From Actinomycetota bacterium (GTDB taxonomy: Bacteria; Actinomycetota; Rubrobacteria; Rubrobacterales; Rubrobacteraceae): a stretch of DNA of 54,067 nt. Each line of letters opens with the position of its first letter. The stretch's first letter is position 1. The stretch lies in NCBI GenBank assembly GCA_004563715.1, contig SIRX01000052.1, positions 1 through 54,067 of the forward strand, read 5' to 3'. Positions 30,909 through 43,412 of the stretch are shown here, piece by piece. A program made the position numbers and the translations under genes. The notes under the pieces are model-generated. The model searched no databases. It had not been told where the DNA came from and worked only from the letters and a program-made list of their open reading frames with translations.

Positions 30909-31826
30909 ATGGACGTATTGGTAACGGGAGCGACCGGGTACGTGGGCTCGGCGGTGGCCGGCGCGCTGGCGGCCGCCGGCCACCGGGTCACCGGTCTGGC
31001 ACGCTCGGAGAAAGCCGCGGAACGCTTGCGGGAGCGCGGCCTGGAGGCCCGGCGGGGCGACCTGGAAGACCCGGCCAGCGTCGCGGCGGCGGCCCGAAAC
31101 GCCGGGGCCGTGGTCCACGCGGCGGTCTCTGACGGACCGGCCCCCGGGGAGACCGAGCGGGCTGTGGTCGAAGCGGTCTTCGAGGAGCTTCGCGGCCCCG
31201 GCAAGACCTTTATCTACACCAGCGGCGGCTGGGTGATGGGCGACACGGGCGGGGAAGTGGCCGACGAGGAGAGCCCGGTGGACCCGCCGCCGGGCATGGA
31301 GTGGCGCCCGGGCGTCGAGGAGCTGGTGCTGGAGACCGCGGCCTCCTACGGGGTGCGCGCCGTGGTGGTGCGTCCAGCGCTGGTGTACGGCGGTGGCGGT
31401 GGGGTGATCGCCGAGCTGGTCGAGTGGGCCCGGGAGCGCGGGGTCGCCCGCTACGTGCGGCCGCCGGAGGGAGAGTGCTACTGGACCCTGGTCCACCAGG
31501 ACGACCTCGGCGGCTTCTACGCCCGCATCCTGGGGAAGGAGGACGGACCGGGCGGGACGCTCGTGGTGGCCGCGGGGAGCGAGCCGCAAAGGGTGCGCGA
31601 GATCGCCGCCGCCGCGGGCCGGGCGGCGGGCGCGGGCCCAACGGTAGAGGCGTGGCCGCTGGCGGAGGCCCGCGAAGAGCTGGGTTTCTACGCCGACTCC
31701 CTCGCCCTGAGCCAGAAGCTCTCCGGCGGGCGGGCGAGAAGCCTCTTCGGCTTCGAGCCGGCCGCCCCCACCGTTTTCGAGGAGCTAGACGCCGGCACTT
31801 ACAGCCGGGGCTACAGCGGGAGCTGA
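30909..31826 (+). CDS. NAD-dependent epimerase/dehydratase family protein
   Basis: A 305-residue atypical SDR. The Rossmann motif is MDVLVTGATGYVGSAVAGAL, followed by HAAVSDG. The catalytic-type region is weak: SGGWVMGDTGG corresponds to the Ser/Thr stretch, but a clear YxxxK is absent (EELVLE), as in other atypical members. RPALVYGGGGG follows. It resembles proteins annotated as nucleoside-diphosphate-sugar epimerases or NAD(P)H-binding reductases. The ATG has a ribosome site AGGAGAGG. Its 3' end overlaps the convergent deacetylase gene by 16 nt. Confidence 0.8.
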   Translation: MDVLVTGATGYVGSAVAGALAAAGHRVTGLARSEKAAERLRERGLEARRGDLEDPASVAAAARNAGAVVHAAVSDGPAPGETERAVVEAVFEELRGPGKTFIYTSGGWVMGDTGGEVADEESPVDPPPGMEWRPGVEELVLETAASYGVRAVVVRPALVYGGGGGVIAELVEWARERGVARYVRPPEGECYWTLVHQDDLGGFYARILGKEDGPGGTLVVAAGSEPQRVREIAAAAGRAAGAGPTVEAWPLAEAREELGFYADSLALSQKLSGGRARSLFGFEPAAPTVFEELDAGTYSRGYSGS

Positions 31827-32572
31827 GCGGGCCCCAGAAAGACCTCGGCGGAACCGGTCCGGCCCGTCCGGCGGGCTTCGTCACCGGCGAAACGAGCCAG
31901 GGTCCTCCGCATCGCGGCTTCGCCGCCGAACTGGAAGCCGAGCTGGCTCCCGTAAGCGGCCGCGGCGTCGAGCTTGGCCGGCAACGCTCCGGTAATGTCC
32001 AGGGCCACCTCGCCGAGCCCGGCGGGCAACAAACCCGCCGGAAGCGTTTCGGAGGCCCGGATCGCGTACGGTGCGTCCCGGTACCAGAGCGCCCGTCCCG
32101 TCGGCACGGCTTCCCGGGCGGCCAGTATTACCTGCCGGTGGTCCACGTGCCCCCCGAGGCCCTGCGGGAGAAAGACGGCTTCCGGCTCGTAACGCGAGAG
32201 CAGCGCCTCCAGGTCCGCCGCGATCGTGGTCCACGCCTCGTCTCCGGGAATCAACCCGCCGAAGAGGGCGGGGGCGCTGTGGTATCCACGGTGTGGGGCC
32301 TCCGGGTGGTCGAGCCAGAGGTGCTCCCGCGCACCGGCCCCGCGGGCGAAAAGACGGTCTTCCTGCCGCCGGAGGGCCATGTAGTCGGTATCGGCCGGGA
32401 GGCCTTTGTCGAGCTGGCACTCCAGGGCAAAGCCCGCCGGGCCCGGGACGCTCTGGGTAAAGACCGTCGCCAGCACCGTCCGCCAGCCCTCGGCGGAGAG
32501 CCGAGCCAGGGCGCCGCCGCAGGAGAAAGCCACGTCGTCGAGGTGGGGTGAGATAAAGAGGACGGTTCTCAT
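31811..32572 (-). CDS. PIG-L/LmbE family deacetylase
   Basis: A 253-residue zinc-dependent N-deacetylase-like protein. The metal motif SPHLDDVAFSCGG (His10, Asp12, Asp13) and the second site GGHVDHRQVILAA are intact. MshB (mycothiol) and BshB (bacillithiol) of this family remove an acetyl from GlcNAc linked to inositol or malate. It is the last gene of the nine-gene cyclitol operon and follows the GT4 gene by 15 nt, the only true gap in the operon. Deacetylation of an N-acetylaminosugar conjugate made by the adjacent glycosyltransferase is the natural inference. The product cannot be mycothiol itself on this evidence, because mshC and mshD are not nearby. Confidence 0.9.
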   Translation of the reverse strand: MRTVLFISPHLDDVAFSCGGALARLSAEGWRTVLATVFTQSVPGPAGFALECQLDKGLPADTDYMALRRQEDRLFARGAGAREHLWLDHPEAPHRGYHSAPALFGGLIPGDEAWTTIAADLEALLSRYEPEAVFLPQGLGGHVDHRQVILAAREAVPTGRALWYRDAPYAIRASETLPAGLLPAGLGEVALDITGALPAKLDAAAAYGSQLGFQFGGEAAMRRTLARFAGDEARRTGRTGSAEVFLGPAQLPL

Positions 32573-32587
32573 GCCTCCAGCACCTTT

Positions 32588-33808
32588 CTAGAGCAGGTGC
32601 GGCTCGCGCCGGAAGCGGCACGGATCGACGGGGCCGGGGTCCGTCCAGCCGTCATCCGGGCTGGTTCCGGCCAGGCCCTCGTAGACGGCCAGGATCTGCC
32701 GGGCCACGGCGGGCCAGGCGTAGAGGTTCCGCGCCTCTTCCAGCGCTTGGCCGGCGAGGCGGCGGCGCAGGTCGGCGTCGTCCAGCAGGCGGTTTACCGC
32801 CCCGGCGAGGGCCTGCGGGTCTCCCGGCGGGACGAGCAGGGCGTTCTCCTCGTGGCGCAGGCAGTCCACCACCCCGACGGCGCGGGTCGAGACGATGGGG
32901 AGCCCGGTGGCCATGGCTTCCAGGACGGTATTGGAGAACCCTTCGGCGTAGGTGGGGGAGACGAAGAGGTCCGCCCGCCGGTACACCTCCGGGGCAGCGT
33001 CGTAGTCGGCGTAGCCGGAGAACGCGACCCGGCCGCTCAGGCCGAGCATCCGGGCGCGGCTGGCGGCGGCCTGCGAGTCCGGCCCGATGCCAGAGACCTG
33101 CAAGCGCGCGGGACGGCCGTTCAGCAGGGCGAAGGCGTCGAGCAGGTCCAGCACGCCCTTGCGGGCGTCCACCCGACCGTGGTAGAGCAGGCGCGGCTCG
33201 CGGCTGGCCTCCCCGAGTAGCCCTTTCGCGGGGTAGAAGCGTCCGGTGTCGACCGCGCCGGGGACTATGGTAAAGCGTTCGGGAGGTGTGCCGTGGTTGG
33301 CGGTGACCTCCGCGGCGAAGGAGCGGGAGCCGATCAAGACCGCCCCGGCGTGGCCGAGGACGGCGAGCATGGCCCTCTTGTGGGTGGCGCAGCAGGTGCC
33401 GACCCAGTGGCCGTCGCCACCCTGGATGGAGACGAGGTTCGGGACCCCCGTGCGGCGGCTCGCCAAGAGCGCGGCCAGGCCCGTCGGATAGCCGTACTGG
33501 GCGTGGATCACGTCGAACGGCGCCCGCGCGTGCTCCTCGACCACGGTACGGGCCATCACCTCGACGTCCTTCTCGAAGTCCCCGCCGGCCTGCTCGCCGC
33601 GGGCTTCGAGCCCGATAACGCGCACCCCCGGCACCGGCGGCGGCGGGCCGCCCCCGTAGACCCGCGTGCCGGCCGCATCCCCCCGGTACTGCGAGACCAG
33701 GGTTACGTCGTGGCCCATCCGCACCAGCTCCCGCAGCAGGTTGGCGGCGTAGACGCTCATCCCGGAGATGGCGGGGAAAAACCGGCGGGAGATAAAGCAG
33801 ACCCTCAC
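32588..33808 (-). CDS. family 4 glycosyltransferase
   Basis: A 406-residue GT-B enzyme. The N-terminal Rossmann half has MRVCFISRRFFPAISGMSVY and HVPYG-type acceptor residues (DVIHAQYGYPTGLAALLAS). The C-terminal half has LLYHGRVDARKGVLDLLDAF and the retaining-enzyme motif SPTYAEGFSNTVLEAMATGL, with the two Glu eight residues apart. MshA and BshA belong to this family. In this operon, after an inositol-phosphate synthase-like gene and before a PIG-L deacetylase, transfer of an N-acetylhexosamine onto a cyclitol is plausible but not proven. Residues FFPAISGM match the sugar-donor loop region. The GTG overlaps the preceding stop (GTGA). Confidence 0.88.
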   Translation of the reverse strand: MRVCFISRRFFPAISGMSVYAANLLRELVRMGHDVTLVSQYRGDAAGTRVYGGGPPPPVPGVRVIGLEARGEQAGGDFEKDVEVMARTVVEEHARAPFDVIHAQYGYPTGLAALLASRRTGVPNLVSIQGGDGHWVGTCCATHKRAMLAVLGHAGAVLIGSRSFAAEVTANHGTPPERFTIVPGAVDTGRFYPAKGLLGEASREPRLLYHGRVDARKGVLDLLDAFALLNGRPARLQVSGIGPDSQAAASRARMLGLSGRVAFSGYADYDAAPEVYRRADLFVSPTYAEGFSNTVLEAMATGLPIVSTRAVGVVDCLRHEENALLVPPGDPQALAGAVNRLLDDADLRRRLAGQALEEARNLYAWPAVARQILAVYEGLAGTSPDDGWTDPGPVDPCRFRREPHLL

Positions 33809-34647
33809 GCGGCGACCCCCTCAAGAGTTCTTTTCAAGTAACTTATGGCTTCGGGCACAGCTTCGTGCGCCCGGTGCGACTCGCGCGAGAGCTCGACGCA
33901 CACCAGGCCCCCGAACCGCGCCCGCCGCAGCGCGCCGAGCACGCCGGGCACGTCCATCTCGCCCTCCCCGAACGGCAGGTGCTCGTGGACCCCGCGTCGC
34001 ATGTCCTCGATCGCGACCGTCCCCAGGCGGCCGGCGAACTCCCCGACCGCCGCCGCCGGCTCCCGCTCCCCGGTGACCAGGCAGTGCCCGGTGTCTAAGG
34101 CCAGCCGGAGCCCCGGTAGCCCGGCGGCCAGGCCGGTAAAGTCGTCGAGCGTCTCCACGAGCATCCCCGGCTCGGGCTCGAGCGCGGCCACAACGTCCAG
34201 CTCCTCCGTTCGCTCCAGGTAGGCGGCGACGCCTTCGAGCAGCCAGCGCCGGGCCTCGCCGCGGTCCACGCCTGGCCGCGGCACCCCGGACCAGAACGAG
34301 ACCGCCTCGGCGCCGGTCGCGGCCGCCACCTCGGCGGCCCGGACGAGGAAGTCCAGGCGGCGGGCACGGCCCTCCGGCTCGGGGCTGACGAGGGTCGGCT
34401 CGTGCTTGGAGCGCGGGTCTAGCAGAAAGCGGGCACCGGTCTCTATAACGATGCCCAGGCCCAGCTCCTCCAGGCGACGGGCGAGGCGTCCGGCCCGGCC
34501 GGCCAGGTCCGGGGCAAAGGGGTCCAGGTGGTGGTGGTCGAGCGTGAGAGCCACGCCGTCGTAGCCGGCCTCGGAGATAAGCGTCAGGGCGTCGTCGAGC
34601 CGGTGGTTGGCCGCCCCGTTGGTGTTGTACGCAAAGCGGAGGCTCAC
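33805..34647 (-). CDS. sugar phosphate isomerase/epimerase (TIM barrel)
   Basis: A 280-residue xylose isomerase-like barrel. Features are RFAYNTNGAANHRLDDALTL at strand one, GVALTLDHHHLDPFAPDL, VVAALEPEPGML (metal Glu), LALDTGHCLVTGE (metal Asp and His) and GGLVCVELSRESHRAHE (metal Glu). The four metal ligands typical of the family are therefore present. Relatives include inosose isomerase/dehydratase (IolE, IolI) and EboE of the ebo clusters. Since the operon encodes an inositol dehydrogenase-like enzyme, an inosose or keto-sugar substrate is attractive. The GTG overlaps the YcaO gene stop (GTGA). Confidence 0.85.
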   Translation of the reverse strand: MSLRFAYNTNGAANHRLDDALTLISEAGYDGVALTLDHHHLDPFAPDLAGRAGRLARRLEELGLGIVIETGARFLLDPRSKHEPTLVSPEPEGRARRLDFLVRAAEVAAATGAEAVSFWSGVPRPGVDRGEARRWLLEGVAAYLERTEELDVVAALEPEPGMLVETLDDFTGLAAGLPGLRLALDTGHCLVTGEREPAAAVGEFAGRLGTVAIEDMRRGVHEHLPFGEGEMDVPGVLGALRRARFGGLVCVELSRESHRAHEAVPEAISYLKRTLEGVAA

Positions 34648-36131
34648 GGCAGCCTCCCCCGGAGCTCGGCTTCGAGGGCCGCCACGTGCCGCCCCGGCTC
34701 GCGGTAGAGCGGGTAGAGCGGCCCGACGATGCGCTCCGCCACCTCGTAATCGAACCAGGCGGGGCTGCCGATCCGCACCTCCTGGTCTTCGGTGAGCCGG
34801 ACCGGGCGGGCGCCGGGCCGGGAGGCCGGGGGCCTCCCCAGCCCGACGAGCCCCAGGTCGCGCTGCAGCAGGCGGCACGCGTTGCGGGCCCCGATCCGGC
34901 CGTAGCTCAGCGTCTCGACCTCCAGGCCGGGTACGAGCGCCTTGACCGCCCGCACCTCCCCGACGCGTTCCCCGGACGGGTCCCGTGGCGAGACGTCCAC
35001 GTGGAGGACCTCGAAGCCCTCTCCTGAGAGCCGCCGGGTCAACTCCTCCAGCAGCGCCACGGGCTCTTCGAGCCCGTCCGCGGCCGGGAGGGCGCCGAAC
35101 GGGACCCGCTCGCGCTCGGAGAAGGTTACGGAGAGCATGTCTCGCAACTCTCCGGCGGAGAGGGCGAGCCAGCCCAGCATGGCCTCCAGCGAGCGGTCCT
35201 CCTCGCTACCCAGAGGCCGCCCCCGGAAGCGCTCCACGTAGCCGGGCGCAGCCAGCTCTTCTATCGGGGCGAGCGGCCCGTGGTTAAAGGGTTTGCGCGC
35301 CCGGGCGGCGCAGAACTCCAGGAGGGCTTTCCCGAGAGCCCGCTCCCGGTCCGGGTGGCACGCCTCGCCGCAGGCCGAGACCGCTAGCGGGTGACGCGTC
35401 TTCTCCGGGTCGCGGTTCTCGCCCACCACGTACAGGTTCGCGGCCCCGAAGTCCGTGGCGGCGAGCTTGGCTCTTACCTCCACCCCCGCGGCGTCGAGCC
35501 TCTCCAGGAGCGCCCGGGTCTCCGCGTCCGCGACCCCGGCGAGGTCCACGACGACGCCGCGGTCCAGGGCCCGGAACGCGACGCCGTTGCCGTCCCGCTG
35601 CATCAGCTCCAGGACGGCGTGGGCGAGCGCCCGCTCCAGGCTCTCCCCGGCCCCGAGGCCGTTGGTGATCGGGGTGAAGAGCCTGCCCTCTTGTCCGCCG
35701 AGGTCCGCGCTGCGGGTGGCCACGAACTCCACCGGCACGAGCACCGGGGCGCCGTCCGGGTGGCGGCGGGCCTCGACCCACTCAAGATCCGTCTCCGGCG
35801 AATACGGGCTGCCGGCGGGCAGGCACCCGGCGACGGGGTCCATGACGGAGGACTCGCCGTACTGGCCCACAAGCTCTTTGTGGGAGGCGCGGGTGCGCGG
35901 GAGACGCCGCAGGGCCTGCCAGGCCCCGGCGGACTCCACGCACTCGCCGAGGGCGCTGGTGCGGGCCGCCTCCTCCGTGGGGCCGTAGCCGACGCCGTTG
36001 CAAAACGGGCCGCCCTCCGGCCAGAGCGCGGCGGCCCACACCGGGACGCCGAGGTGGTCGAGCGGAGAAATGCCGAACTCCATAACCTCCCCCGGCGGGA
36101 GCGACGCCCGGTACGCCTCGGCGGCGCTCAC
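34644..36131 (-). CDS. YcaO family ATP-dependent protein
   Basis: A 495-residue protein. Two YcaO signatures are seen: ARTSALGECVESAGAWQAL in the N-terminal half, and TNGLGAGESLERALAHAVLE with LMQRDGNGVAFRAL near the centre. Glu residues in these segments bind Mg-ATP. Other blocks are HPLAVSACGEACHPDRERAL and the C-terminal LRRRLP-like end without the PxPxP of azoline cyclodehydratases. Known YcaO enzymes activate backbone amides to form azolines, amidines or thioamides. No TfuA, E1-like partner, dehydrogenase or precursor peptide is seen here, so it may act on a small molecule or a precursor coded elsewhere. GTG 36131 overlaps the preceding stop by 4 nt; the longer frame to 36215 has no support. 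Confidence 0.88.
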   Translation of the reverse strand: MSAAEAYRASLPPGEVMEFGISPLDHLGVPVWAAALWPEGGPFCNGVGYGPTEEAARTSALGECVESAGAWQALRRLPRTRASHKELVGQYGESSVMDPVAGCLPAGSPYSPETDLEWVEARRHPDGAPVLVPVEFVATRSADLGGQEGRLFTPITNGLGAGESLERALAHAVLELMQRDGNGVAFRALDRGVVVDLAGVADAETRALLERLDAAGVEVRAKLAATDFGAANLYVVGENRDPEKTRHPLAVSACGEACHPDRERALGKALLEFCAARARKPFNHGPLAPIEELAAPGYVERFRGRPLGSEEDRSLEAMLGWLALSAGELRDMLSVTFSERERVPFGALPAADGLEEPVALLEELTRRLSGEGFEVLHVDVSPRDPSGERVGEVRAVKALVPGLEVETLSYGRIGARNACRLLQRDLGLVGLGRPPASRPGARPVRLTEDQEVRIGSPAWFDYEVAERIVGPLYPLYREPGRHVAALEAELRGRLP

Positions 36132-37003
36132 AGCGGCATCGCCTCCACGAACGGCCGGCCCGAGAGCTGGGCGTCCAGCAGCCGCAGGATCTCCGCGCGC
36201 CCGACGTTGCGGCACTGCTCGAAGGGCGTGAAGGTCTGGTCGAAGTCCAGGGCGGCGAAGACCTCCCGGTAGCGGCGCACCTCGCCGGGGGAGAGCGGGA
36301 TCCGGCGTACAAAAGCCTTGTGGGTCGAGATGCCGTCGGCGGTCCGCTCGTCGGCCAGCTCCAGCTTCACGGCGTCCCCGGAAAAGAGGATGCCCCGCTC
36401 CCGATGGTACAGGACGGCGTGCCCGGCAAAGTGGCCGCCGGTCCGGATCAGGGCCAGGCCACCACCCAGCTCAGCTTCCGCGTCGAAGGTCCACGTCACC
36501 CCGAAGGCCTTGGCCCAGAACAGGTCGTCCCGGTGCAGCAACACCTCGGGATCAAAGCGCTCCACCAGTTGCCAGAGCGCCCCGTAGGTGTGCGGATGCG
36601 AGGCCGAGAGGTAGGCTACGCCGCCGAGCGACTCGATGTGGTCGAGGGCGTCCCCGTCGTAGAACGGCGCGCACTCGAAGGCGACGTTACCCTCCGGCCG
36701 CACGATGAGGTACCCGGAGGACGAGATGCCCAGGGGCGGCTCCGTGGTGTAGCGCCAGATCCCCGGCTCGATCTCCTTCCAGCGGCATCGCCGCTCCACT
36801 TTCTTCGGGGAGAGGAACTCCCAGCCGCCGGCGGGCAATACGTGCCGCGGGTCGAGGCAGACCGGGCACGAGGGTGGCGTCTCGAAGTACCGCTGCCAGA
36901 AGCCGCAGTTCGTGCAGACGCAGGCCGGCAGGGCCGCTTCCCGCGGCCACTCCTCCGGGATGCGCGAGCCGTGCGGCGTGCCGCGCCGCATTCCAGGGTT
37001 CAT
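36128..37003 (-). CDS. zinc-ribbon metallo-beta-lactamase fold protein
   Basis: A 291-residue protein. The N-terminal 35-60 residues form a rubredoxin-like zinc ribbon (CVCTNCGFW, then CPVCLDPRHVL). The MBL fold follows: PLGISSSGYLIV strand, YLSASHPHTYGALWQL in the place of HxHxDH, TGGHFAGHAVLYHRERGILF with the third His, and FSGDAVKL with the bridging Asp. The Asp-His pair of the first motif is replaced (HPHTYG), a pattern I recall as normal in this fungal-like subfamily, so a single-metal hydrolase is likely. Substrate unknown. It sits between a Gfo/Idh/MocA dehydrogenase and YcaO, overlapping each by 4 nt. Confidence 0.78.
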   Translation of the reverse strand: MNPGMRRGTPHGSRIPEEWPREAALPACVCTNCGFWQRYFETPPSCPVCLDPRHVLPAGGWEFLSPKKVERRCRWKEIEPGIWRYTTEPPLGISSSGYLIVRPEGNVAFECAPFYDGDALDHIESLGGVAYLSASHPHTYGALWQLVERFDPEVLLHRDDLFWAKAFGVTWTFDAEAELGGGLALIRTGGHFAGHAVLYHRERGILFSGDAVKLELADERTADGISTHKAFVRRIPLSPGEVRRYREVFAALDFDQTFTPFEQCRNVGRAEILRLLDAQLSGRPFVEAMPL

Positions 37004-38043
37004 GTGACGCTCCTCTCCAGAAAGTCGTGGGCGTCTTTCATGGCCGTCGCGAGGAGGCCCATGGTGTGCAAGTCTCTCTCCGCCGGGAAAGGAAAGGCTT
37101 CGGGGTCCCCGCGCAGGGCGGCGCTGAAGGCCTCGACCTGGGCCAGAAAGGGCGGGCGATCTTCCTCCGGCGGGATATCGACCCGCTCCCGGTGGCCGTC
37201 CGCGGCCCGGATCACGTCCAGCCTCCCGCCTGCGGTCTGGCCCAGCGTGTCGGACGCCAACGCCAGCGCCTCCGTTCCGGAGACCTCCAGCGTCCGGCGC
37301 GGGTAGTGCTCGGGTGTGTTGTACGAGACGTGCTGCGAGACGAGCACGCCCCCTTCGGTCAGCCCGACGAGCGCGGCCCCGTCCTCCACCGGGTAGTCGA
37401 AGACGCGCCGCTGCGCGAGGCAGCGGACCATCCGGAGCTCCTCCCCCAGCAGGTACTGAACCAGGTCCAGGCCGTGCGGCGCGAGGTCCATGAACGCCCC
37501 GCCCCCGGCCCGTTGGGGGTCGGCGCGCCAGTTGTCCTCCGCCCAACCCGGCGGAAGCCAGCAGGCGTAGTGGACCCGCGCCGAGCAGACGACGCCGAGC
37601 GCGCCCGACGAGATCAGGGCCCGGAGCCGCTGGTGGGCGGCGTGGAAGCGCTGGTCGAAGGCCGTCCCGTAGGTTACGCCCGCCGAGCGGCAGGCATCCA
37701 CCATCTCCTCCGCGTCGGCGAGCGTCGCGGCCATCGGCTTCTCGCACATGACGTGCTTTCCGGCCCGCGCCGCCGCCTCGACGACCGCCGCGTGCCGGTG
37801 GTTAGGGGTCGCGACGTAGACGGCGTCGAGCCCCGGCGTTTCGAGAAAGGGGCCCGGCTCCGCGTGCGCGGCGGCTTCGGGAAAGCCGCTGGAAGCCGCC
37901 CGGAGCGCCGCCGGGTCCGGATCCAGCAGGGCGGCGACGGAGCAGTTCCCGGCCGCGGCGAGGGCGGGCAGGACGAAGTCGCGGGCAACCCACCCGCAGC
38001 CGGCCACGCCCCACCGCACGGCGCCGGGAGCCGCCACTACCAC
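37000..38043 (-). CDS. Gfo/Idh/MocA family oxidoreductase
   Basis: A 347-residue NAD(P)-dependent dehydrogenase. The Rossmann motif is VRWGVAGCGWVARDFVLPAL; AVYVATPNHRHAAVVEAAAR and the catalytic Lys in HVMCEKPMAATLADAEEMVD are textbook. GGGAFMDLAPHGLDLVQYLLG includes the catalytic-type Asp and His. The family oxidises hydroxyls of myo-inositol, glucose and other sugars or cyclitols. Next to an inositol-phosphate synthase-like enzyme, an inositol-type substrate is likely. GTG 38043 (overlap of 7 nt with the methyltransferase) or GTG 38037 may be the start; longer readings run into the methyltransferase gene. Confidence 0.9.
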   Translation of the reverse strand: MVVAAPGAVRWGVAGCGWVARDFVLPALAAAGNCSVAALLDPDPAALRAASSGFPEAAAHAEPGPFLETPGLDAVYVATPNHRHAAVVEAAARAGKHVMCEKPMAATLADAEEMVDACRSAGVTYGTAFDQRFHAAHQRLRALISSGALGVVCSARVHYACWLPPGWAEDNWRADPQRAGGGAFMDLAPHGLDLVQYLLGEELRMVRCLAQRRVFDYPVEDGAALVGLTEGGVLVSQHVSYNTPEHYPRRTLEVSGTEALALASDTLGQTAGGRLDVIRAADGHRERVDIPPEEDRPPFLAQVEAFSAALRGDPEAFPFPAERDLHTMGLLATAMKDAHDFLERSVT

Positions 38044-39260
38044 CGCTCCGGCAGGTCGAGGAGCAGCCGCCGGCGCGCCAGCCGGTCCACCTCCGCGTCG
38101 GACCCGGCCGCCCCCTCGGCGGCCCGCCGGAGGGTCTCGCGCGGGACCCGGAGCTCTTCGGGCAGGTAGCCGGAGGCGGGCGCGTACTCGGCCTCGTAGC
38201 GGCCCGAGGGCCACCGGCGACGCAGGACCGCCGGGTCGCCGTGCCCGTCCTCGTACAGCGGGTTCGGGCGCAGCGGTGTCCCCGGCGGCGGCAGGGCGAG
38301 GTCCGGGACCGCGTTGCCCGGTTCGCCGGTCCCGCCGGTTACGAGGCAGACCGCAGCGCTCTGCGAAAGCTCGGCGAGGTCCCGGGCCCTCGGGTCGGCC
38401 CCTTCGAGGAGATCCCTGGTAAGCTCCGCGTCGTCGTAGAGCAAGGGCTCCGCAAAGAGTCCGGCGTAGCCCGCGGCGGTTAGCGGCGACCCGGAAGAGA
38501 AGTTCCGCGCGGCGGCGTTGTGGACGTGGCCGACGAGCACGGTTCCCTCCGCCCCCGCTACCCGCATCAGCTCCGAGGCCGCGTGGGCCTTGTTCTCCAG
38601 GAAGTAGAAGGCGTCGTGGCAGAGGACAAGGTCCGCGGAGCCTTCCGCCAGCGGAAACGGGGCGGCGGCGTCGAAGCAGACCAGCCGGGTCGTAGGCGCG
38701 ACGTAGCGGCGGGCGAGCCACAGCTTGGCGAAGACCACGTCGCCAGCGGCGGTCTCCACGCCCTGCCGCGCCAGTTCCCGGCTGTAGTGCCCGACGCCGC
38801 AGGCCAGCTCGAAGGAGGCGCGGGGTCTTCGCCAGTGGGCCTGGAGTAGGGCCAGGCCCGCCAGGTAGGTAGGGTCGGAGAGCCGGTAGGCGAAGTAGTC
38901 CGCCACCGGGCCGAAGCCGAGCAGGCCCATCGCTTCCCGGAACGTGGGCTCGCCGTCGAGAAGCTGCTCGATACCCTCCCGGTCCGGCGGGGGACCTGGG
39001 GCCCAGTCGTCCTGGTCGCGCAGAAGTTCCACGAGCGCCGCCCGCTCGTCGCCCCGGTCGAGCGCCCCGAGCGCCACGTCCCGCAGCTCCTCGCGGCCCG
39101 CTCGCAGAAACGGAATGCCCTCGACGAGGGGCCACCGGGTCTCACCGTCGGTGAGCGCGTGCGGCCCGGCGGCCCGGAGCGCTAGGCCTGTCTCGGGGCT
39201 GCGGAGGGTGCCGTCCGGCCAGCGGACGGCGCTGTTCGCGATCTTGGGCTGCTCCGTCAA
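38037..39260 (-). CDS. SAM-dependent methyltransferase with Trm112-like N-terminus
   Basis: A 407-residue protein. Residues about 10-60 (LRSPETGLALRAAGPHALTD) resemble the Trm112/YcaR-type segment that precedes some class I methyltransferases. The Rossmann methyltransferase follows at about 130-260: FELACGVGHYSRELA (motif I), CFDAAAPFPLAEGSADLVLC (motifs II-IV) and FYFLENKAHAASELMRVAG. The C-terminal 150 residues are a helical extension of unknown role. The start is TTG 39260, overlapping the preceding stop (TTGA). The methyl acceptor could be a sugar or cyclitol hydroxyl or a carboxylate. Confidence 0.8.
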   Translation of the reverse strand: MTEQPKIANSAVRWPDGTLRSPETGLALRAAGPHALTDGETRWPLVEGIPFLRAGREELRDVALGALDRGDERAALVELLRDQDDWAPGPPPDREGIEQLLDGEPTFREAMGLLGFGPVADYFAYRLSDPTYLAGLALLQAHWRRPRASFELACGVGHYSRELARQGVETAAGDVVFAKLWLARRYVAPTTRLVCFDAAAPFPLAEGSADLVLCHDAFYFLENKAHAASELMRVAGAEGTVLVGHVHNAAARNFSSGSPLTAAGYAGLFAEPLLYDDAELTRDLLEGADPRARDLAELSQSAAVCLVTGGTGEPGNAVPDLALPPPGTPLRPNPLYEDGHGDPAVLRRRWPSGRYEAEYAPASGYLPEELRVPRETLRRAAEGAAGSDAEVDRLARRRLLLDLPERW

Positions 39261-40183
39261 CGCAGCCCCGCTTCCCGCAGCGCCTCTTCGTGGAAGCCCT
39301 TCAGGGGACCTTCGTGTACGAGCTCCAGCTCGTCGAGCGCCTGGTCCAGCGTAAAGGCCGCCGCGCGGGCGTGGTGGGCCATCTGGAGCACCCGGTCCAC
39401 GACGTCGGCGGCGTTGAAAGCCCGGGCCTCGGGGCTCCCCGCGTGGCCGGCGAGCCCGAGAGCCTGGCGGACGCGCCCGGCGAGGTTACCGGGCAGCTGC
39501 CGCAGGGCCTCGTCCGTAAAGCGTTTCACAAGCGGCTCCAGCTGCTCCGCGAGGAGCTCTTCCCCGGCGAAGCCGGAATCGGGCAGGAACGCGTTGTGCG
39601 CGTGGTGGGCCAGCCCGGCGAGAAACGGCTCTACCGGGTCGGCCCCGTAGCGGGCCGAGATCAGGAACCCGTAGACCGCCACGAGCGCGCAGTGGTCGGC
39701 GTGGTTCTCCGGGGGTTCCAGCACCAGCCGCGCCACCCCCGGGCGGGTGGCCCCGGCCCGCGGTTGCCGGGCGAGCGCCCCCACGAAAGGCGGCGCGTCT
39801 TCCCCCTCGGCAACGGGTGCGTCGGCCAGCGCGCGGCGCAACCCCTCCATCAGTTCCCCGCAGAGGCCGTGCGCCGCGGCGTCGAAGCCGCGCGTCAGCA
39901 CCCCGGTGGTTGCCGGGGCGCCCAGGCCGCCCCGCTCCAACACCCGGCGGTCTATGCCGCCGAGCCGGACGGCTGACACGGCGAGGGCGGTCTCGCGGCG
40001 GGCGACGGCCGCCGGGTCCTCACCGGCCACCAAGCGTGCCCATGAGCGCCGGAAAAGCCTCTCGGCCAGGGAGCCCCCGGCGTCGGCCGTCCGGGTGCGC
40101 TTGAGGTCGCCCAGCTCCGCCAGCAGGGGGCGCAGCGGGGCGAGCGTCCCCGCGGTGTTGGCGGAACCGGCGGTGGTCCCCAC
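39257..40183 (-). CDS. HD-domain-like protein
   Basis: A 308-residue helical protein without membrane segments. The segment ENHADHCALVAVYGFLISARYG, then FLAGLAHHAHNAFLPDSGF, looks like the HxxHD arrangement of HD phosphohydrolases, with HH in place of HD, and FNAADVVDRVLQMAHH carries the later Asp and His. A phosphatase or hydrolase acting on a cyclitol phosphate would suit its place directly after the inositol-phosphate synthase-like gene. It could equally be a non-enzymatic EboA-like protein; similarity is too weak to decide. The GTG overlaps the preceding stop by 1 nt. Confidence 0.55.
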   Translation of the reverse strand: MGTTAGSANTAGTLAPLRPLLAELGDLKRTRTADAGGSLAERLFRRSWARLVAGEDPAAVARRETALAVSAVRLGGIDRRVLERGGLGAPATTGVLTRGFDAAAHGLCGELMEGLRRALADAPVAEGEDAPPFVGALARQPRAGATRPGVARLVLEPPENHADHCALVAVYGFLISARYGADPVEPFLAGLAHHAHNAFLPDSGFAGEELLAEQLEPLVKRFTDEALRQLPGNLAGRVRQALGLAGHAGSPEARAFNAADVVDRVLQMAHHARAAAFTLDQALDELELVHEGPLKGFHEEALREAGLR

Positions 40184-41400
40184 TACCGGGCCGCCCCGTT
40201 CCCGTTGGAGCCGTTGGCGAGCCAGGTTTGTAGCGCCTCCTCCTGGGCGTGGAAGGCGTGCCGGGGTCGTGAGCCGGCTTTCTCCGTCATCGGGGCCTTG
40301 AAGAACAGGCCGAGCTGCTCCTGGACGCCCGACTCGCCGCGCATCAGGGCCAGGTCCGCGAGCCGGGCGAGCTCGACGACGAGCGGGGCGGCCAGCACCG
40401 AGTCCCCGCAGAGAAAGTTGACCTTCAACTGCATCCGGTGCCCGAGAAAGCCGACGAGGTCCACGTTGTCCCAGGCCTCCTTATCGTCGCCCCGGGGCCG
40501 GTAGTAGTTGATGGCCACCACGTGGTCCGGAACCTCGTAGCCCAGCATCTCGTCGAGCACCGAGCCCTTCGTGTCGATCTTGGAGGCCAGCGAGTCCGGG
40601 TCGGAGAGCACGAAGCCGTCGCCGTTACCCAGGAGGTTCGTGGAGAACCAGCCCTCGACCCGCAACGCCCGGGCCCGCAGCGCCGGGGCGAGGACCGTCT
40701 TGATCATGGTCTGCCCCGTCTTGCCGTCCTTGCCGCAGACCGGCACTCCCTCGCGCCCGGCCAGCTCTACGAGGGCGGGGATCTCGGCGGCGACGCTCGG
40801 CGTGAAGTTGACGTAGGGCGCGCCCTCGCGGATGGCGGCGTAAGCGTAGAGCATCGCCGGGCTTATGCCCGGGGCGTCCTCGTCCAGGCCGCGCTCGAAC
40901 GCCTCGGCCGTGGAGAGCACCGGAAGCGTCGGGTCCGCGAGCCGCTCGGTGGAGGCCAGGTTGACCAGCACGGTGCCGTCGAGGTCGTTCTCCTCCTGGA
41001 ACCGCCGCAGGTCTTCCCGGATGGCGTCCGAGCGCGCCCGCAAGCCCTCGACGGCGAGCGCGTTGGAGCCGGCGGCGTTGCGGCAGAAACCGGGGTCCAC
41101 GGCGGCGGACCAGGGCCGAAGCTCGACGAGCGCCGGCTTCGCCCGGCGGACCTGCTCGGGGGAGAGGATGCCGTGGGTAGCGGCGGCGCTCGCCAGGTCG
41201 TCTCCGCAGAGGTCCCAGCCGCCGAACACCAGGTTCTCGTAGGGGACGAGGCCGTCGAAGCCGGCGAGCGGCAGACCGTCCGGGCCGGCCACGCCCTGCC
41301 GGATCAACTCCATCCCCGCAACAGCGGTGGTCGCGACCGCGCCCCCCAGGCCCACGACGGCCACCCCGACCCGGCGGCCCTCTAGCTCAGAACTCTGCAC
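40183..41400 (-). CDS. myo-inositol-1-phosphate synthase family protein
   Basis: A 405-residue NAD-dependent cyclase. Features are the Rossmann motif VGVAVVGLGGAVATTAVAG, NLASTERL, NFTPSVAAEIPALVELAGRE, CGKDGKTGQTMIKTVLAPAL, WFSTNLLGNGDGFVLSDPDS and SKIDTKGSVLDEMLG, all characteristic of inositol-3-phosphate synthases of the bacterial type. The expected reaction is glucose 6-phosphate to inositol phosphate; related enzymes build other carbocycles such as that of aristeromycin. It is the first gene of the nine-gene operon. GTG 41400 has AGGAGG 4 nt upstream, while the frame extends upstream without support. This gene makes a cyclitol the most likely skeleton of the pathway product. Confidence 0.88.
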   Translation of the reverse strand: MQSSELEGRRVGVAVVGLGGAVATTAVAGMELIRQGVAGPDGLPLAGFDGLVPYENLVFGGWDLCGDDLASAAATHGILSPEQVRRAKPALVELRPWSAAVDPGFCRNAAGSNALAVEGLRARSDAIREDLRRFQEENDLDGTVLVNLASTERLADPTLPVLSTAEAFERGLDEDAPGISPAMLYAYAAIREGAPYVNFTPSVAAEIPALVELAGREGVPVCGKDGKTGQTMIKTVLAPALRARALRVEGWFSTNLLGNGDGFVLSDPDSLASKIDTKGSVLDEMLGYEVPDHVVAINYYRPRGDDKEAWDNVDLVGFLGHRMQLKVNFLCGDSVLAAPLVVELARLADLALMRGESGVQEQLGLFFKAPMTEKAGSRPRHAFHAQEEALQTWLANGSNGNGAAR

Positions 41401-41852
41401 GTGCCCTCCTAGCTCCGGCCCCAGAGCCCGATGCCGGGCCTCCCGGGGGTCCCTCCAGTTTGTCGCCCGCGCCGCCGGGAGCGCCGCGGGCCGGCTACGA
41501 GCAGAGACTCTAAGGGGTCGCCCGACGCGAAACTGTGCGCACAAACCCATCTGCAAAAGCTTTCACACCGGTCTTCAGTCTCACGGTCTGGCTTTGAACC
41601 CCGTGATAGCTAACACCTCTGAGAAAGCCCGTGGTGGTACTTTTACGCTGGAGCAAGCACCTGGGCAGAGGAGTTGGAAGTGGCCTACAGCGTAATGGCA
41701 TGGCTGGCGAACCCGGGCCGGCCGCGGAGACACCGTACCATGAGGCTGCTGGTGCTGGGCGAGCCCGAAACTCGCTGCCGGCCTCGACCCGAACCTGGAG
41801 AGGGAGCTGATCCCGGGTTGGCGGACCTCCGGCGGACGGGTATAGAATCCCG
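41401..41852. other. divergent intergenic region, cyclitol operon control
   Basis: No convincing gene in 452 nt. The part at about 41525-41665 is less GC-rich than its surroundings and probably carries the operon promoter on the minus strand; TAGAGT at 41512-41507 is a possible -10. The right end carries the promoter of the oxidoreductase gene. No riboswitch recognised. Confidence 0.4.
41818..41848 (+). promoter_or_regulatory. promoter of oxidoreductase gene, leaderless
   Basis: TTGGCG (41818-41823), 17 nt, TATAGA (41841-41846), overlapping TAGAAT (41843-41848). Transcription would begin near 41853-41855, at GTG 41853 or ATG 41856, without a leader. Confidence 0.55.
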
Positions 41853-41855
41853 GTG

Positions 41856-43412
41856 ATGAATGGATCCTACGACGCGGTGGTGGTCGGCGCGGGCCCCAAC
41901 GGCCTCTCGGCGGCCATCCGGCTCGCGGAGGCCGGGCTCTCCGTTTTGCTCGTCGAGGCCGAGGACCGGGTCGGCGGCGCGGTAAAGACCGACGAGCTCA
42001 CCCTCCCCGGCTTTCGGCACGACACGTTCTCCGCCGTCTACCCGGCGACCGCGGCCTCCCCGGTCTTCGCCCGGATGCCGCTGGAGAGGCACGGTCTCCG
42101 GCTCGTCCACCCGCCGGTCGCGATGGCCCACGTACTCGATGGTGGCCGGGGCGCGGCGCTCTACAGGGACCTCGACCGCACCGCGGGTTCCCTGAACGAC
42201 CTGCACCGGGGCGACGGCGAGGGCTGGCGGGAGTTCATCTCGCCCTACCTGCGGAACTGGGAGGCCCTGCGGGGGGCGATGCTCGGCGGCTTCCCGCCGG
42301 TGTGGGGGGGACTGCGGGCGGCGGCGGGGCTCGGATACTCCGGGTCCCTGGAGGCGGCGCGCATGGTCCTGCAGCCCGCGGCGGGGCTTGCCAGAGATGT
42401 CTTCGCGGGCGACGGGGCGCGGGCCTGGCTCTACGGCTCGGCGCTGCACGGGGACGTGGCCCCCGGCGCCGCCGGGAGCGCCGTCTTCGGCTTCTACCTC
42501 AACCTGCTCGGCCACGCCGTCGGCTGGCCCGTCGTCGAGGGCGGCTCCGGCCGGCTCTCGGAGGCTCTGGCCGGCTACTTCGGGGAGCTGGGGGGCGAGG
42601 TTCTCACCTCGAGCCCGGTCGAGCGGGTTCTCACGCGGAACGGCCGCGTCCGGGGCGTGGTGGCCGGCGGGGCTGAGGTCCGGGCCGGCCTCGTGGTCTG
42701 CGACGTGACCCCGAAGGGGTTGCTGGCGATAGCGAGCGAAGCCCTGCCCGGGAACTACAAGAAGAAGATGGCCCGGTTCCGCTACGGACCCGGCAACCTG
42801 AAGGTAGACTGGGCGCTCTCGGGACCGGTGCCCTGGGAGTACGACGAGGCCCGGCGGGCGGGCACGCTCCACGTGGGCGGCGGAACTAACGAGCTGGAGG
42901 AGAGCATCTCGCTGGAGAAGCTCGGGCGCCTGCCAGAGAGGCCGTTCGTGCTCGCCGCCCAGCAGACGGTCGCGGACCCGTCCCGCGCCCCCGAAGGCCG
43001 TCACACCCTGTGGGGTTACACCCACGTGCCGTCCGGCATCGACTGGGAGCAGGAAGCCGAGAAACACGTCGGGCGCATCGAGGCCCAGATCGAGCGTTTC
43101 GCGCCGGGCTTCCGGGAGCTGGTTCTGGCCCGGCACGTGATGACGCCCGCCGACCTCGAAGGCCGCAACCGCAACCTGGTCGGCGGGGACGTGAACGCCG
43201 GCAGCCAGGCCCCGGACCAGCTCTTTTTCCGGCCGCTGCCGTCTCTCTCGCCCTACCGCACTCCCCTGCGGGGCCTGTACGTCGGGAGCGCCTCGACCTT
43301 CCCCGGCGGGGCCGTCCACGGCGTCCCCGGCGACGCCGCCGCCAAAGCCGCCCTCACTGACCTCCGGCTGCGCCGCGTAAAGCCCGAACAAGCCCGTAGT
43401 GTAGACACATAG
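41856..43412 (+). CDS. phytoene dehydrogenase-related FAD oxidoreductase
   Basis: A 518-residue flavoprotein. The FAD motif is AVVVGAGPNGLSAAIRLAEAGLS, then VEAEDRVGGAVKTDELTLPG; the C-terminal flavin motif GLYVGSASTFPGGAVHGVPG is intact. This is the CrtI/PYROXD2-like group, which act on polyenes or other unsaturated substrates; many members have no known substrate. It has no membrane segment. ATG 41856 is chosen; GTG 41853 is equally possible, as the promoter puts the transcript start at this point. It is divergent from the cyclitol operon and may be unrelated to it. Confidence 0.85.
   Translation: MNGSYDAVVVGAGPNGLSAAIRLAEAGLSVLLVEAEDRVGGAVKTDELTLPGFRHDTFSAVYPATAASPVFARMPLERHGLRLVHPPVAMAHVLDGGRGAALYRDLDRTAGSLNDLHRGDGEGWREFISPYLRNWEALRGAMLGGFPPVWGGLRAAAGLGYSGSLEAARMVLQPAAGLARDVFAGDGARAWLYGSALHGDVAPGAAGSAVFGFYLNLLGHAVGWPVVEGGSGRLSEALAGYFGELGGEVLTSSPVERVLTRNGRVRGVVAGGAEVRAGLVVCDVTPKGLLAIASEALPGNYKKKMARFRYGPGNLKVDWALSGPVPWEYDEARRAGTLHVGGGTNELEESISLEKLGRLPERPFVLAAQQTVADPSRAPEGRHTLWGYTHVPSGIDWEQEAEKHVGRIEAQIERFAPGFRELVLARHVMTPADLEGRNRNLVGGDVNAGSQAPDQLFFRPLPSLSPYRTPLRGLYVGSASTFPGGAVHGVPGDAAAKAALTDLRLRRVKPEQARSVDT

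Follow-up and report, generated by a model that had tools for sequence, protein, structure and literature searches.

Here we describe a nine-gene operon in a 54,067-nucleotide stretch of DNA from an actinobacterium of the family Rubrobacteraceae (GenBank assembly GCA_004563715.1, contig SIRX01000052.1, positions 1 to 54,067; hereafter the window). Nine open reading frames (ORFs) lie on the minus strand at 31811–41400 (Table 1) and encode, in order of transcription, a myo-inositol-3-phosphate synthase (MIPS), an HD-like protein, a methyltransferase, a Gfo/Idh/MocA oxidoreductase, a rubredoxin-like metallo-beta-lactamase (MBL), a YcaO protein, a TIM barrel, a GT4 glycosyltransferase and a PIG-L deacetylase. 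From 5' to 3' the junctions measure −1, −4, −7, −4, −4, −4, −4 and +15 nt, and seven of the eight overlap by 1–7 nt, bearing out the overlapping operon that a preliminary description of this DNA, made from its letters alone, had reported; should gene 4 start at its alternative GTG, its junction with gene 3 would measure −1. Gene 1 starts at GTG 41400, which is preceded by ctaggaggg. Pfam backs eight of the nine gene names proposed in that description, and the HD name draws on a weak profile match together with the fold. Among curated NCBIfam models no equivalog cut-off was reached by the nine proteins, and the general YcaO domain model TIGR00702 alone was reached.

Table 1 Features of the operon, with window coordinates and the support for each assignment.
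Feature	Coordinates	Strand	Assignment and basis
Gene 1	40183..41400	−	Myo-inositol-3-phosphate synthase (MIPS), dedicated paralogue; PF07994/PF01658, Pfam 5.7e-62
Gene 2	39257..40183	−	Cluster-specific HD-superfamily protein; H161, H164, HH193-194, D260, D263
Gene 3	38037..39260	−	Class I S-adenosylmethionine (SAM) methyltransferase with extra N-terminal domain; Pfam Methyltransf_11 8.8e-11
Gene 4	37000..38043	−	Gfo/Idh/MocA NAD(P)-dependent oxidoreductase; start 38043 or 38037; Pfam GFO_IDH_MocA 8e-25
Gene 5	36128..37003	−	Metallo-beta-lactamase fold with N-terminal rubredoxin-like CxxCG/CPxC domain; Pfam Lactamase_B 8e-6
Gene 6	34644..36131	−	Standalone YcaO, ATP-dependent enzyme; PF02624, Pfam 5.8e-50
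Gene 7	33805..34647	−	Xylose-isomerase-like TIM barrel; AP_endonuc_2 PF01261, Pfam 4.4e-36
Gene 8	32588..33808	−	GT4 glycosyltransferase; Pfam 2e-35
Gene 9	31811..32572	−	PIG-L (GlcNAc) deacetylase; Pfam 1.1e-17
Putative promoter region	41401..41852	.	Between gene 1 and a divergent FAD oxidoreductase; from gene layout

The same gene order recurs in Sphingomonas, Erythrobacter, Methylobacterium, Roseomonas, Pseudonocardia and Hymenobacter, spanning three phyla and partly borne on plasmids. A YcaO scan of species genomes gave nine named relatives (a Beijerinckiaceae metagenome-assembled genome (MAG), several Sphingomonas, a lichen Caulobacter MAG, Erythrobacter, Parapontixanthobacter and Pseudonocardia), in which every sufficiently long contig shows this gene set in unchanged order at 41–66% identity, and plasmid records with the cluster come from Hymenobacter volaticus, Methylobacterium aquaticum 22A, M. 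bullatum and Roseomonas haemaphysalidis. Together with regions of whole genomes, these relatives and plasmid records made up 64 loci for comparison. All nine genes stand in identical order in 23 loci, and 27 have eight with the MBL missing (the Methylobacterium type); the methyltransferase is absent from one locus, another is without MIPS and encodes its MBL on the opposite strand, and contig ends break most of the remainder. By organism, the methyltransferase is missing in Hymenobacter and one relative. No transporter, resistance gene or precursor peptide belonging to the conserved unit was found in the 64 loci, which fits an intracellular product. Flanks of the Methylobacterium-type loci are conserved among themselves only, as expected from descent.

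Pairwise protein distances correlate among the nine families (Spearman rho 0.66–0.90), so these genes travel together. The HD gene marks the cluster, with strong homologues in carriers and none in other sampled genomes: in the family of the window, the 6 of 39 genomes that have it are the very ones with the YcaO cluster, weak matches only turn up elsewhere among 396 genomes of the phylum, and it was found in 34 of 298 Beijerinckiaceae-family and 14 of 349 Sphingomonadaceae genomes, in 3/385 genomes sampled over the class and in 6/295 of a second phylum draw. Fixed order over three phyla, co-evolution and a common presence pattern support the view that the nine genes form one functional unit. 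The alternative under which the preliminary description would have fallen, namely unlinked genes with no common presence pattern, was examined and failed, and the recurrence of one order in dozens of unrelated genomes goes beyond chance. Identity of the window genes is no lower to Hymenobacter, which belongs to another phylum, than to Pseudonocardia, of the same phylum as the window's family; with the plasmid copies, this indicates that the cluster moved horizontally between lineages. A search of viral contigs returned no relatives.

Active-site residues were read from alignments of 27–51 members per family, and most active sites are kept across the nine families, the HD and MBL proteins having altered metal motifs. 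In gene 1, K274, K278, K307 and K368 match the catalytic K274, K278, K306 and K367 of A. fulgidus MIPS and are invariant in 49 homologues; these lysines and the fold (nearest solved structure 7NWR, E 2.5e-80) place the protein in the MIPS family. The window genome (G000) has a second MIPS, 50% identical to gene 1 (C61:23531–24718), and the cluster MIPS is the sole one in most other carriers tested. The oxidoreductase keeps EKP Lys102 and D186/H190 as invariant residues, with 1,5-anhydrofructose reductase 2GLX as the nearest solved structure (2.9e-40), and E157, D185, H188 and E252 are invariant in the TIM barrel. YcaO has the ATP/Mg motifs of its superfamily (ExxE E63/E66, H171, E175, R179 and QRDGN, all invariant); its nearest solved enzyme is MJ1094 (6PE3, 1.2e-9), and it is the only YcaO in the window genome. 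In the GT4, whose nearest solved relatives are Tll1590, MshA and BshA, E289-x7-E297 is invariant and unusual QGGDGHWVGxCC and C-terminal CRFRxEPHLL motifs occur. PHLDD and HxDH are invariant in the PIG-L protein, which lies nearest to the Dbv21/teicoplanin N-acetylglucosamine (GlcNAc) deacetylases. The MBL keeps H136, H138, H191, D210 and H228 and lacks the DH of HxHxDH; its structure search returned MBL folds from an AlphaFold model of low confidence (predicted local distance difference test, pLDDT, 63), so the matches indicate the superfamily level only.

The HD protein is the least certain of the nine. Its Pfam HD_3 match (0.05) is below threshold, and its AlphaFold model (pLDDT 85) has HDDC2/YfbR-like proteins as nearest solved folds, with a Foldseek probability of 1.0 but an E value of 0.0075. 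An invariant HH (193–194) replaces the HD doublet of the phosphohydrolase H...HD...D signature in 51 sequences, and the position of the YfbR catalytic Glu is not conserved. A phosphatase role is doubtful because HH stands where phosphohydrolases have HD, and dephosphorylation by this protein is not supported. An identity as EboA was rejected, profile comparison giving an E value of 0.15, and no myo-inositol-oxygenase-type diiron oxygenase, a further identity considered, appeared among the fold matches listed.

Literature on YcaO with MIPS, PIG-L or sunscreens, and on YcaO outside ribosomally synthesized and post-translationally modified peptide (RiPP) pathways, yielded no description of this set, in a search mostly outside subscription journals. 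In agreement with the preliminary description, the operon fits no described pathway that we found, and the defining features of mycothiol, bacillithiol, ebo, RiPP and mycosporine systems fail in it. The closest likeness is to mycothiol synthesis (Ino1, MshA, MshA2, MshB, MshC, MshD), in which GlcNAc-inositol is made and then deacetylated: the operon has a dedicated MIPS, a GT4 of the MshA/BshA group and a PIG-L protein. It differs in adding the Gfo oxidoreductase, TIM barrel, methyltransferase, MBL and YcaO and in occurring in Alphaproteobacteria and Bacteroidota, and the mycothiol equivalogs stay far below cut-off (Ino1 TIGR03450 32.5 versus 638; MshA TIGR03449 83.4 versus 462.5). By analogy, the operon would work like the first half of that synthesis, extended by an oxidation, an isomerisation, a methylation and a YcaO step. 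The GT4 and PIG-L pair is also that of bacillithiol (BshA/BshB/BshC), whereas BshC is not in the set, the BshA and BshB models are below cut-off and a cyclitol acceptor is expected here. Both families are present with their active-site motifs, and inositol is the predicted acceptor. Since MIPS, an MshA-like GT4 and an MshB-like PIG-L all point to an inositol-aminosugar core, as first proposed, the product is probably a small molecule of this kind, judged from gene content.

A second likeness is to the ebo (EDB, EboA-F) clusters, with which the operon has in common a cyclitol-forming enzyme and a xylose-isomerase-like TIM barrel. The closest relatives of gene 7 outside the cluster (52% identity) adjoin a MIPS (38%) in Streptomyces ebo loci; in ebo clusters on Streptomyces plasmids (L148 7939–15114, L149 and L150), MIPS replaces EboD and a further TIM barrel is present. 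Compared with the Streptomyces Ebo proteins by blastp and by profile, the operon has matches for MIPS and the TIM barrel only, the latter resembling EboE weakly. EboA, UbiA (EboC), TatD (EboB), EboE and EboF are not in the operon, whereas GT4, PIG-L and YcaO are not in ebo. A cyclitol compound has been put forward as the product of the ebo cluster (PMC5133447), which is needed for export of the monomer of scytonemin, a sunscreen, in Nostoc (PMC6282210). These neighborhoods suggest that inositol may be the cyclitol of actinobacterial ebo clusters.

The nine enzymes can be arranged in a putative course. MIPS would convert glucose-6-phosphate to inositol-3-phosphate, a step well supported by its sequence, and the phosphate would then be removed, perhaps, though doubtfully, by the HD protein. 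Going by their superfamilies, the Gfo/Idh/MocA enzyme may oxidise the inositol ring, giving an inosose that the TIM barrel may isomerise or dehydrate towards an enolised dione, with optional O-methylation by the methyltransferase. More speculatively, YcaO could transfer phosphate from ATP to a carbonyl or amide oxygen for displacement by a nitrogen nucleophile; by chemical analogy only, this would put YcaO in the role of the mycosporine ATP-grasp enzyme. GT4 would add a GlcNAc-type sugar and PIG-L would free its amine, as MshA and MshB do. The amide-derived group that YcaO had earlier been thought to add gains nothing from the locus, where gene 6 has neither a precursor peptide nor a partner protein. 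Compared with the mycosporine-like amino acid (MAA) pathway, the proposal would have in common a cyclitol ring that is O-methylated, an ATP-dependent step joining nitrogen to an enolised carbonyl, and ultraviolet (UV) screening; it differs in that none of the nine is a DDGS/EEVS-type cyclase, ATP-grasp enzyme or nonribosomal peptide synthetase (NRPS) domain, which MIPS and YcaO would replace.

The above comparisons lead us to read the operon as a self-contained, mobile cluster for an intracellular inositol-N-acetylaminosugar small molecule, most likely a protectant against sunlight stress, with a probability of roughly 40%. Photoprotection, tentatively as a sunscreen-like cyclitol glycoside, is suggested by linkage to UV repair, which, like the pair of MIPS and TIM barrel in common with Streptomyces ebo clusters, had escaped the preliminary description. 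In Roseomonas two spore photoproduct lyase (SPL) genes adjoin the cluster and UvsE is also close; Sphingomonas RIT328 has an SPL directly downstream, with no other found in the 54 sphingomonad genomes tested; an SPL adjoins the cluster of the relative G029; and the Sphingomonas solaris cluster has a photolyase-related gene nearby. Under random placement, with genome sizes partly assumed, 0.06 adjacencies were expected outside Roseomonas, the discovery locus, and 2 were observed (P 0.0018). Methylobacterium, a main carrier, makes methylobamine, which absorbs UVA (cited in PMC9664959, PMC10875822).

Several observations weigh against a sunlight-stress protectant. The SPL link was recognised in hindsight, once Roseomonas had been seen, and depends on three loci and on assumed genome sizes. 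No SPL lies beside the Methylobacterium clusters, and none was matched in the window's own genome. Among Beijerinckiaceae, SPL genes occur in 27 of 34 carriers versus 0 of 40 non-carriers, a difference confounded by descent, and in neither of the other two families is their co-occurrence with the cluster significant. Sphingomonad carriers show no enrichment of photosynthetic reaction-centre genes (1/14 versus 7/40). The HD protein is without its canonical doublet, and the methyltransferase and MBL are dispensable and missing in whole lineages, so the product varies.

Other products have to be weighed against the same genes. An inositol-glucosamine acylated or amidated by YcaO could serve as a mycothiol-like redox compound or osmoprotectant without UV absorption. 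MIPS, GT4 and PIG-L are the enzymes of the first half of mycothiol synthesis, the logic is intracellular with no transporter and the carriers come from dry, oxidising places, but neither the MshC cysteine ligase nor the MshD acetyltransferase was found among the nine genes or conserved flanks, mycothiol models fall far short, and the oxidoreductase, TIM barrel and methyltransferase would be left unexplained; we regard such a protectant as rather unlikely. An improbable role in warfare, as an aminocyclitol or thioamide antibiotic or a nematode repellent, would suit the patchy, plasmid-borne distribution, the glycopeptide antibiotic deacetylases nearest to PIG-L and the link of the related ebo cluster to predator defence (PMC6282210), yet the 64 loci hold no conserved transporter or self-resistance gene and an aminotransferase is not among the nine.

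GT4 and PIG-L enzymes act in glycolipids too, the Roseomonas cluster is followed by an mdoH-type GT2, and two other clusters have MdoH-like genes nearby. A pathway for a surface glycan or glycolipid head group nonetheless seems quite improbable, as the GT2 is not conserved and the conserved set holds no prenyl- or acyltransferase, flippase or polymerase. To our knowledge, characterised YcaO enzymes all act on peptide or protein backbones, and the McrA-thioamidating MJ1094 is the nearest solved relative of gene 6, which would speak for a RiPP pathway with sugar tailoring. Gene 6 does have the full-length YcaO domain and conserved ATP/Mg motifs of the thioamide and azoline enzymes (MJ1094, SagD family) but stands among sugar and cyclitol enzymes; no small ORF is conserved between lineages in or beside the cluster in the 64 loci, shadow frames at the Crp gene excepted, and no E1-like or TfuA partner is among the nine, making action on a ribosomal peptide very improbable.

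The preferred reading, a sunlight-stress protectant built on inositol and an aminosugar, has a bolder form. The cluster might define a new class of sunscreen in which inositol would become an enolised, optionally methylated cyclohexenone, YcaO rather than an ATP-grasp enzyme would install nitrogen and an aminosugar would decorate the product; this would be a route to methylobamine-type UVA absorbers and the first non-peptide YcaO, and we consider it rather unlikely. A nine-enzyme pathway common to unrelated bacteria of leaves, lichens, air and similar habitats, often sun-exposed, and transferred between phyla and on plasmids, suggests strong selection for an undescribed metabolite. If photoprotective, it would explain UVA screening by common leaf and surface bacteria and give genes for a new sunscreen. 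The operon is also a natural test of YcaO function outside peptides, and the MIPS product provides a sharp substrate hypothesis for the TIM barrel common to the still unsolved ebo clusters.

Several minor observations concern individual copies, relatives and neighbors of the cluster. The locus without MIPS and with the MBL on the opposite strand (L110, genome G490) belongs to a genome in which no MIPS was found, and its cluster may depend on imported inositol. Frame breaks occur in the Gfo and GT4 genes of the Hymenobacter plasmid copy (L041, 12948–13996 and 17217–18448), in the HD and MIPS genes of G439 and in the HD gene of G1388, reflecting either decay or sequencing error. Distant relatives of the rubredoxin-MBL (~29%) are common on plasmids of Pantoea, Cronobacter and Rhizobium; the one such region read, on a Pantoea eucrina plasmid, has none of the other cluster genes. 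Standalone YcaO paralogues, ~50% identical, occur in G020, G021 and G022 with the other cluster genes not nearby, that of G022 (L126 9191–10693) lying among sugar ABC transporter, deacetylase-like and glycoside hydrolase genes. Immediately upstream of nearly all sphingomonad copies is a Crp/Fnr-type regulator (for example L003 3981–4781). In the window, the operon is adjoined by the divergent FAD oxidoreductase, of CrtI/amine-oxidase type (41853–43412, plus strand; Pfam Amino_oxidase), which is followed by a stress-type short-chain dehydrogenase.

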